From: Pseudomonadota bacterium
GTDB lineage: Bacteria; Pseudomonadota; Gammaproteobacteria; GCA-001735895
NCBI GenBank assembly: GCA_022566015.1
Contig: JADFJT010000013.1
Location: 1-39,908, forward strand
Length of the DNA: 39,908 bases
Direction: 5' to 3'
This document shows positions 8,498 to 11,148 of the stretch, in pieces. The position numbers and the translations under genes were made by a program. The stretch's first letter is position 1. The number at the start of each line of letters is the position of its first letter. The notes below the pieces were generated by a model. That model worked only from the letters and a program-made list of their open reading frames with translations, made no database searches and was not told the DNA's origin.

Positions 8498-9295
8498 ATG
8501 GACGATAGCAACCCGAAACCCAGCCGAAAAACCCTGAGAAGGGGTATTTTTCTGTTGCCCAATTTGTTTACCACGGGTGCGCTTTTCGCCGGGTTTTATG
8601 CCATCATCGCCTCCATGAATGGCCGCTATGAAACCGCGGCTATGGCTATATTTCTCGCTATGCTGTTAGACGGTCTCGATGGTCGAGTAGCACGATTGAC
8701 CAATACCCAGTCTGCATTTGGCGCGGAATTTGACAGCCTGTCAGACATGGTTTCATTTGGTGTTGCACCAGCTTTGATCGTATATCAATGGTCTCTGGTC
8801 AATCTGGCAGAAATATCCACACTTTGGGGCAAACTAGGTTGGCTGGCCGCGTTTATCTATTCCACTTCAACCGCATTACGTCTGGCTCGTTTCAATACCC
8901 AGATCGGGGTCGCCGATAAACGCTACTTCCAGGGCCTCGCCTGCCCTGCCGCCGCCGCTGTAGTTATGGGCGCTATCTGGGTCTGCGAAATCTATGGAAT
9001 CACCGGCAGGCAAGTTGTTTATCCATCCCTGGTGCTCACCTTGATCGCGGGAGGGTTGATGGTTTCCAGATTTTCCTACTACAGCTTCAAAGATATCGAC
9101 ATGCGTAAGAAAGTTCCATTCTTTGCGGTGTTGATAGTAATGCTGGTATTTGTATTTTTATCCATCGAACCATCGATAATACTTTTCTCATCCGCTGTAC
9201 TGTACATGCTTTCGGGTCCCGTGATCTCCCTGTTTCGCTGGAACCGAAAGCGACAACGGCAGTCGGTATCTGTCGATCGAAACGAATCCGAATAA
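8498..9295 (+). CDS. pssA: CDP-diacylglycerol--serine O-phosphatidyltransferase
   Basis: Integral membrane enzyme of 265 aa making phosphatidylserine, the precursor of phosphatidylethanolamine. The CDP-alcohol phosphotransferase signature is complete: D58, D61, G62, A65, R66, G75, D79 and D83, in DGLDGRVAR followed by GAEFDSLSD. Several hydrophobic helices follow. This is the membrane-embedded type, not the peripheral E. coli PssA. I start at the ATG at 8498; the longer frame begins inside the ilvC terminator. No strong Shine-Dalgarno is seen. Its place between ilvC and leuA is common in non-enteric proteobacteria. Confidence 0.93.
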   Translation: MDDSNPKPSRKTLRRGIFLLPNLFTTGALFAGFYAIIASMNGRYETAAMAIFLAMLLDGLDGRVARLTNTQSAFGAEFDSLSDMVSFGVAPALIVYQWSLVNLAEISTLWGKLGWLAAFIYSTSTALRLARFNTQIGVADKRYFQGLACPAAAAVVMGAIWVCEIYGITGRQVVYPSLVLTLIAGGLMVSRFSYYSFKDIDMRKKVPFFAVLIVMLVFVFLSIEPSIILFSSAVLYMLSGPVISLFRWNRKRQRQSVSVDRNESE

Positions 9296-9386
9296 ATTCA
9301 GCCTTACAGGTATCATCTGCCTAATCATATCGGGGGGTCGGGCTTCAATTTATTAGCCATTTTTTATCGAAGCTAAAATTTTTTAC

Positions 9387-9415
9387 TTGGCAATCTCCCC
9401 ATAGTTGGCTATATT
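9387..9415 (+). promoter_or_regulatory. Sigma70-type promoter of the leuA leader
   Basis: TTGGCA (9387-9392), a 17-nt spacer, then TATATT (9410-9415). An A/T-rich stretch precedes the -35. The expected transcription start, six to eight bases after the -10, falls at about 9421-9423, on or next to the leader ATG at 9422. Predicted from sequence only. Confidence 0.5.
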
Positions 9416-9421
9416 CTAGTC

Positions 9422-9526
9422 ATGCAAGACACCTGCGCACCATTCATACCCCCTGTCCTGGCCGACCGCCGGGCGCTCCTGCCTGCGTATGCATTGCTAT
9501 CTCTGCTGCTCACTCTGCTGCCGTAA
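9422..9526 (+). CDS. Putative leucine leader peptide of leuA (34 aa)
   Basis: ORF ATG 9422 to TAA 9524-9526, too short for ordinary gene finders. Ten of 34 residues are leucine, and the last ten residues read LLSLLLTLLP. It lies directly upstream of the gene for the first committed enzyme of leucine synthesis, as expected for a ribosome-stalling leader. No Shine-Dalgarno is visible and the predicted transcript may begin at the ATG itself. Codons 26-28 include CTATCTCT, complementary to the leuA ribosome-binding site (see findings). The TAA sits in the loop of a CTGCC/GGCAG hairpin. Alternative reading: a tiny membrane peptide. Position and codon bias make a regulatory leader more likely. Confidence 0.6.
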   Translation: MQDTCAPFIPPVLADRRALLPAYALLSLLLTLLP

Positions 9527-9598
9527 GGCAGATGAGAACTCCTGACGAGGGCAAACGTAAGTAACAAATCCATTTTTAAGCTAATTCAAAAGAGATAG
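9497..9598 (+). promoter_or_regulatory. Proposed anti-RBS pairing controlling leuA translation
   Basis: CTATCTCT (9497-9504, inside the leader's Leu codons) pairs perfectly over 8 bp with AGAGATAG (9591-9598), which holds the leuA Shine-Dalgarno. One G-U pair (9496/9599) extends it. Enclosed is the hairpin 9518-9531 with outer pairs 9509-9512/9533-9536. No T-run preceded by a GC-rich stem lies between the leader and leuA, so control of translation is more likely than control of termination. Structure inferred, not folded by program. Confidence 0.45.
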
Positions 9599-9600
9599 TC

Positions 9601-11148
9601 ATGAGTAAAGATAAATTGATCATATTCGACACCACCCTGCGCGATGGTGAACAAAGTCCAGGTGCGTCGATGACAAAGGACGAGAAAGTACGAATCGCCA
9701 GGGCACTGGAAATAATGAAGGTCGATATTATCGAGGCCGGGTTTCCAATCGCCAGCAACGGTGATTTCGAAGCAGTAAAAGCCATCGCTGAAATAATCAA
9801 AGACAGTACTATATGCGGGCTCGCACGCGCCAAGAGGGGTGATATCGAACGCGTCGGGGAAGCGATCAAACCGGCTAACTCGGGCCGAATCCATACTTTT
9901 TTGGCGACATCCCCGATCCATATGGAGCGAAAATTGCGTATGTCTCCCGACGAAGTCGTCGATGCTGCCGTAAAAGCTGTTCGCCTGGCGCGTAAGTACA
10001 CCGATAATGTCGAATTTTCACCCGAAGATGCCGGTCGTTCAGAACCTGACTTCCTGTGTCGCATAATCGAAGCGGTGATCAAGGAGGGAGCCACAACGAT
10101 CAATATTCCGGATACCGTTGGATACAATATCCCCCACCAGTTCGGCGCTTTGATCAAGGAATTAATGGAGCGTATTCCCAATTCGGACAAGGCCGTTTTT
10201 TCAGTCCACTGTCACAACGACCTTGGCCTCGCAGTCGCCAATTCACTTTCTGCAGTATTGCAGGGCGCACGCCAGGTCGAATGTACTATCAATGGCCTGG
10301 GCGAACGCGCAGGCAACGCGTCGCTGGAGGAAGTCGTGATGGCGGTGCGTACTCGTCAGGATGTGTTTTCCTGCGAAACCCATATCGATACTACACAAAT
10401 AATGATCTGCTCCAAATTAGTCGCTGGCATCACCGGGTTTAATGTGCAACCAAACAAGGCTATCGTCGGTGCGAACGCTTTTGCACACGAAGCCGGAATC
10501 CATCAGGATGGCGTACTCAAATCACGCGAGACTTACGAAATCATGCGTGCGCAGGACGTCGGATGGTCTTCCAACAAGCTGGTACTCGGTAAGCATTCCG
10601 GCCGCAACGCGTTCAGGGTTCGTATGGCAGAATTAAATATTGAATTTTCATCAGAAGAGGAACTCAACGAAGTATTCGCGCGCTTTAAAACCCTGGCCGA
10701 TAAGAAGCACGACATCTTTGACGAGGACTTGCAGGCGTTGGTGACCGAAACTGCACTTGAAACTGAAAACGAAACGATTAAGCTGGTGAGCCTGCACGTT
10801 TGCTGTGAAACCGGCGAAACGCCGAACGCGACCATGGTATTGAATATTAATGGTGAAGAGAAAAAAGCACAGTCTTCGGGTGATGGCCCCGTCGACGCCT
10901 GTTTCAAGGCGATCGAGATGCTCACCAAAACCGGCGTCAATTTGCAGTTGTATTCGGTCAATGCAATCACCACTGGCACCGATTCGCTGGGCGAAGTGAC
11001 GGTACGGGTTGAAAAAGACGGTCGGGTGATCAATGGTCAGGGTGCCGATACTGACATAGTAATCGCCTCGGCAAAATCTTACATCAATGCACTCAATAAG
11101 GTCATGAGCAATTCGGGCAAAACGCACCCGCAGCTGGGCGATGTCTAA
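9601..11148 (+). CDS. leuA: 2-isopropylmalate synthase
   Basis: Condenses acetyl-CoA with 2-oxoisovalerate, the first committed step of leucine synthesis and the target of leucine feedback. The protein has 515 aa, the full-length form. The TIM-barrel catalytic domain begins with [12 protein letters not shown] (residues 10-21) and carries the metal-binding HCHNDLG motif in the strand near residue 204. The C-terminal LeuA dimer/allosteric domain (about 390-505) contains [15 protein letters not shown] and [18 protein letters not shown]. The ATG at 9601 is preceded by AGAG at 6-nt spacing. leuB, leuC and leuD are not adjacent. Confidence 0.97.

Follow-up and report, generated by a model that had tools for sequence, protein, structure and literature searches.

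A leucine-rich leader whose codons may pair with the leuA ribosome-binding region in a gammaproteobacterial genome

How could a leucine biosynthesis gene respond to leucine through a leader peptide when no terminator lies between the two? The question is raised by the leuA locus in a 39,908-nt stretch of gammaproteobacterial DNA (assembly GCA_022566015.1, contig JADFJT010000013.1, positions 1 to 39,908; referred to here as the window), where a short leucine-rich open reading frame (ORF) precedes leuA. An earlier note on this DNA proposed that a ribosome stalled on the Leu codons would keep them from pairing with the leuA ribosome-binding site (RBS), so that control would be translational. Conservation among relatives and folding of the leader make it fairly probable that the locus is a leucine-sensing translational attenuator in which the sensing codons pair directly with the leuA RBS. 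The features on which this reading draws are as follows.

9422-9526, + strand: leader peptide ORF, 34 codons, C-terminal end LLSLLLTLLP*; kept in 19 loci of the genus and 9 further loci of the family
9496-9504, + strand: anti-RBS segment GCTATCTCT within Leu/Ser codons; pairs with 9591-9599
9591-9599, + strand: ribosome-binding region of leuA, AGAGATAGT, with complementarity to the Leu codons
9601-11148, + strand: leuA, 2-isopropylmalate synthase (TIGR00973 and NF002087 matches), the regulated gene in the proposed reading

Leucine codons and the leuA start site

The leader translates as MQDTCAPFIPPVLADRRALLPAYALLSLLLTLLP*, a peptide of 34 amino acids with 10 Leu, seven of them among the last 10 codons, as the earlier note had read it. 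The exact complementarity that it pointed out is also present: CTATCTCT at 9497-9504 (codons 26-28) faces AGAGATAG at 9591-9598, and in the centroid fold the helix reaches 9 bp, counting one G.U pair (9496-9504 with 9591-9599). In dinucleotide shuffles, the ORF by chance held an exact 8-nt complement to part of the 25 nt upstream of leuA in 2.5% of cases when the RBS was shuffled and in 0.9% when both ORF and RBS were. By itself such an uncommon match does not settle the matter, since pyrimidines abound in Leu codons and purines in RBSs; the stability of the whole-leader fold is ordinary (z = +0.5). It is conservation in relatives, rather than the match in a single sequence, that argues for a functional helix.

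We compared the leader-bearing loci of the family, 19 from the genus itself and 9 from sister genera. The leuA start site in the genus reads GAGATAGCC-ATG almost unchanged, the exact complement of GCTATCTC in the leader, and 17 of the 19 leuA genes keep GAGATAGC exactly. Conservation is 95-100% at leuA positions -9 to -2 and drops to 53% in the stretch just upstream. The conserved block takes in the spacer between the Shine-Dalgarno sequence and ATG, a stretch that usually varies freely. The codons that face it are nearly frozen as well: Ser is TCT in 18/19 members, and the Leu before it is CTA in 14 and CTG in 4 of the 19, both competent for pairing since CTG retains it as G.U. In the window, AGAGATAGT exchanges one G-C for G.U and gains one U-A; in one relative (L006) both sides have changed and a bulged helix is still possible. 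Folding predicts that the RBS is paired chiefly with the Leu region in all 19 genus members, and across the family each leader pairs better with its own RBS than with exchanged partners (permutation p = 0.0006). Conservation of the ORF and of the pairing, which the earlier note expected of relatives, thus holds within the genus. An alternative hairpin, AAACGT/ACGTTT, noticed by eye in some genus members, was dropped, as it is kept neither in the window nor in L003.

Loss of the leader is accompanied by change at the RBS. The leader is absent from five sampled genomes (L004, L005, L007, L019, and L024) and degenerate in two (L021 and L023), and these seven fall in four places on a leuA nucleotide tree read regardless of support values, suggesting about four separate losses. 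The motif GAGATAGC is gone from the leuA start site in all seven, and positions -9 to -2 differ in each. In L021 and L023 the region can still be recognised, and the start sites there read GAGACAA and GAGACAG, respectively. The five other losses are weaker evidence because the intergenic stretch itself has been replaced; these genomes have also lost the leader promoter, and their leuA start site is a different one. Several leaderless genus members carry a stronger Shine-Dalgarno sequence (AAGGAG or GAGG) at leuA.

To model stalling, a ribosome-sized mask was placed on chosen leader codons and the full leader ensemble was folded. In the free leader the 8-bp helix has a probability (P) of 0.88 and the RBS octamer is 4% unpaired. 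Masking the stop codon leaves P at 0.87; with the mask on codon 26 or 29 it falls to 0.00 and on codon 33 to 0.13, and the RBS becomes about 32% unpaired with masks on codons 26-33, compared with 0.04 when free. A mask on codon 20 gives P 0.94. These folds thus correspond to an OFF state when the leader is completed, an ON state when the ribosome stalls on the main Leu cluster, and an OFF state when it stalls on the first Leu pair. Computation therefore yields the behaviour of a translational attenuator, an RBS hidden in the default fold and freed by a leader-stalled ribosome, and the release under masking is the one that the earlier note had predicted. The early Leu pair itself (codons 19-20, CTC CTG, at 9476-9481) is mostly kept across the genus.

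The transcript that would carry this leader probably begins at the leader itself.

9387-9415, + strand: promoter TTGGCA-17-TATATT, expected to start transcription on the A of the leader ATG or beside it (consensus evidence)

This is the better of two promoter-like sites in the region and the only good one. Its -10 box lies 6 nt upstream of the leader ATG, and the spacing is 6-8 nt in 27 of the 28 leader-bearing family members, the exception being L006. With the -10 box so near the ATG, the leader mRNA is predicted to be leaderless, a probable feature that the earlier note overlooked, as it did the stop-codon hairpin and the conserved pseudoknot described below. A transcript start downstream of 9504, which that note had counted against its own reading, is not predicted: the only promoter found near the leader sets the start on its ATG or beside it. 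The claim that no intrinsic terminator separates leader and leuA is borne out as well: terminator-like sites number 0 in 9100-9800, and intrinsic terminators occur in 0/28 family leaders and 10/109 leaders overall. The gene order in the window is ilvB, ilvN, ilvC, pssA, and leuA.

The stop-codon hairpin and pseudoknot

Between the two pairing strands lies a compact structure.

9518-9531, + strand: stop-codon hairpin CTGCC-GTAA-GGCAG with TAA in the loop (H1 of model R1; among 94 distinct rows, 91.3% of cells are paired)
9540-9551, + strand: hairpin H2, T-CCT-GACG-AGG-G (both-side changes at 3/4 pairs; 95.6% of cells paired)
9545-9558, + strand: H-type pseudoknot, loop ACG (9545-9547) with CGT (9556-9558), a loop RCG/downstream CGY pairing

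The element consists of the stop-codon hairpin, then CCTGRCGAGG, then ACGYA, and both hairpins covary. In 96 sequences the R/Y pair between loop RCG and downstream CGY is G-C in 66, A-U in 21, G.U in 9, and A-C in 0; CG is imposed on either side by the search pattern, which makes only this R/Y covariation informative, and 13 of the 109 sequences lie outside the pattern. The A-U version is present within the genus and, as separate cases, in L168 and L172. Leu codons are retained beside the element in nearly every member.

A covariance model (R1) built on the two hairpins matches 107 of 369 genomes of the class, and leuA adjoins the element in 67 of the 70 loci examined. Of the other three, two were rejected: L200 (G224:C1:1477454-1477526) is a CRISPR array whose repeat, GTTTACTGCCGCACAGGCAGCTTAGAAA, mimics the stop-codon hairpin, and L202 lies inside a coding region with no leuA beside it. 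The third is a second, orphan copy in one genome, with no leuA behind it (L186, G125:C96:4386-4452). Across the phylum, sampled evenly, only 4 of 398 genomes have a match with E<=0.001. Two of these lie outside the class: L213 has no leuA nearby, and L214 (G410:C1:3679608-3679665), from another class, has a leader ending LLLP* and a stop-codon hairpin before a gene whose product is only a distant relative of LeuA (29% identity). Rfam gave no gathering match to Leu_leader or any other relevant family, and nothing relevant at E<=10. No description of the element was found in the open literature, most subscription papers being outside the reach of the search. That these loci form an unlisted, widespread class of gammaproteobacterial leuA leader RNA, with a leaderless Leu peptide, a stop-codon hairpin, and a compact pseudoknot that together control leuA translation, and that it shares ancestry with the actinobacterial LEU element or has converged on it, is a tentative proposal with somewhat less than an even chance of being right.

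Proposed mechanism and rival explanations

If transcription starts at the leader ATG, ribosomes would load straight onto the leader ORF. With ample Leu-tRNA, a ribosome would reach the stop codon and depart, and the Leu/Ser codons GCUAUCUCU could then pair with the leuA ribosome-binding region AGAGAUAGU; this helix would close a structure that encloses the stop-codon hairpin and the pseudoknot, and leuA initiation would stay low. With scarce Leu-tRNA, a stall on codons 26-33 would cover the anti-RBS and block the helix, and leuA would be translated. The pseudoknot may position the two pairing strands or bind something. On the comparative and folding evidence, leuA is probably switched on under leucine shortage. 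If so, many gammaproteobacteria would read amino-acid starvation through ribosomes on a leaderless mini-gene, and the signal would go to translation instead of transcription termination, with the sensor codons doubling as the lock. The odd design of the actinobacterial LEU element would then be present in another phylum, and the role of its pseudoknot would become testable with a wide comparative set.

Several observations weigh against this mechanism. The anti-RBS/RBS helix barely varies, and true double compensatory changes in it are accordingly few. The covariation check proposed in the earlier note came out mixed: synonymous codons are frozen, and the whole 8-nt block is kept and is lost with the leader, whereas classical compensatory covariation is sparse (the rewired L006 and A-U/G.U exchanges), as the pairing hardly changes among genus members. 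Sister genus g3 has the helix at another register, and in several of its members it is weak. We also compared the Leu region of 73 non-redundant class members outside the family with their own leuA start, against shuffles. Pairing z was -0.62 (s.e.m. 0.14) at -20..0 and -0.67 at 0..+20, and windows clear of the leuA start region gave z between -0.31 and +0.33. The signal across the class is modest and has no fixed register, and part of it could come from shared sequence at the leuA start. Conservation and folding within the genus fit translational attenuation, and the pairing outside it is only weakly supported. The RBS change in leader losses may be a by-product of intergenic replacement. A stall at the early Leu codons 19-20 leaves the RBS hidden (the P of 0.94 given above), an OFF state that could mean either super-attenuation or a flaw in the model. 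PMC1262725 also quotes Streptomyces mutants whose behaviour departed from simple attenuation, and it proposes a binding protein.

Four other explanations can be set against the proposed attenuator. Rho-dependent transcription attenuation, in which translation of the Leu leader would decide Rho loading on a C-over-G linker before leuA, suits a Leu leader peptide that lacks an intrinsic terminator and draws further support, at the expense of direct pairing, from the A-rich and G-poor family linkers (C 0.23, G 0.07). However, linkers outside the family are balanced (C 0.26, G 0.24), and the frozen 8-nt RBS block and its complement would go unexplained; we regard this route as unlikely. The hairpin and pseudoknot might alternatively form a binding site for a protein or small ligand that the leader peptide merely tunes, as has likewise been proposed for the LEU element (PMC1262725), and the pseudoknot is indeed conserved more widely than the RBS pairing. 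A pure binding site would have no need of the Leu codons kept in nearly every member, and no candidate ligand or protein was found in this analysis, which makes this explanation rather improbable.

The 8-nt complementarity could also lack function and follow simply from the pyrimidine-rich make-up of Leu codons opposite an RBS rich in purines. A chance level of 1-2.5% for a single sequence and the weak pairing in the sister genus leave some room for this, whereas the conserved block, the frozen codons, and their joint loss speak against it and give it a slim chance. Classical transcription attenuation with a cryptic terminator, as at E. coli leuL, would fit a Leu-rich leader before leuA, which is the classical arrangement (Shewanella leuA, PMC2659441); it appears very improbable given that neither the window nor the 28 family leaders hold a terminator-like site and that there is no match to the Rfam Leu leader.

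Relation to known leader systems

The principle is not new. In the actinobacterial LEU element, a run of Leu codons pairs with the leuA Shine-Dalgarno sequence around a pseudoknot (Seliverstov et al. 2005, PMC1262725), and the S. lividans leuA leader is leaderless and without a typical terminator (PMC8079986). The gammaproteobacterial architecture matches that of the published element. Both have an upstream ORF with a Leu codon run before leuA; the base stem between Leu codons and Shine-Dalgarno sequence is found in the window and the genus and is weak or shifted elsewhere; and a pseudoknot lies between the base-stem strands, here with no mispair in 96 sequences and with covariation in H2. They differ in phylum and LeuA subfamily, in leader length (about 30-40 codons here versus 15-16 in two published actinobacterial peptides), and in the stop codon, which here lies within a hairpin preceding the pseudoknot. 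What seems new is the occurrence of such an element in Gammaproteobacteria, its stop-codon hairpin with pseudoknot, and the evidence, at genus level, for joint retention of RBS and codons. The leader peptides LLLLSCRGEG and LLLLRRGGSQ (PMC8079986, PMC5784534) could accommodate a GGCGAGG or GGCGGG motif, which is a lead only. A Streptomyces plasmid match was set aside as an actinobacterial LEU comparison, as it shows no sign of being a chromosomal leuA.

The leuL attenuators of E. coli, Salmonella, and Shewanella share the Leu-rich leader before leuA and ribosome stalling as the sensor (proposed here). However, they end in an intrinsic terminator, none of which was found at this locus. In ermC-type antibiotic-inducible attenuators, a leader-stalled ribosome frees a sequestered RBS, and the signal is a nascent peptide stalled by the drug; the resemblance lies in the release of the RBS by stalling, and the signal here would presumably be uncharged tRNA-Leu. 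Another apparently leaderless Leu leader occurs upstream of betaproteobacterial leuA (L040, L042, L045, L048, L062, L080, L101, L105, and L106), which usually finishes with LLRxAR* inside a GC-rich terminal hairpin and lacks the pseudoknot motif.
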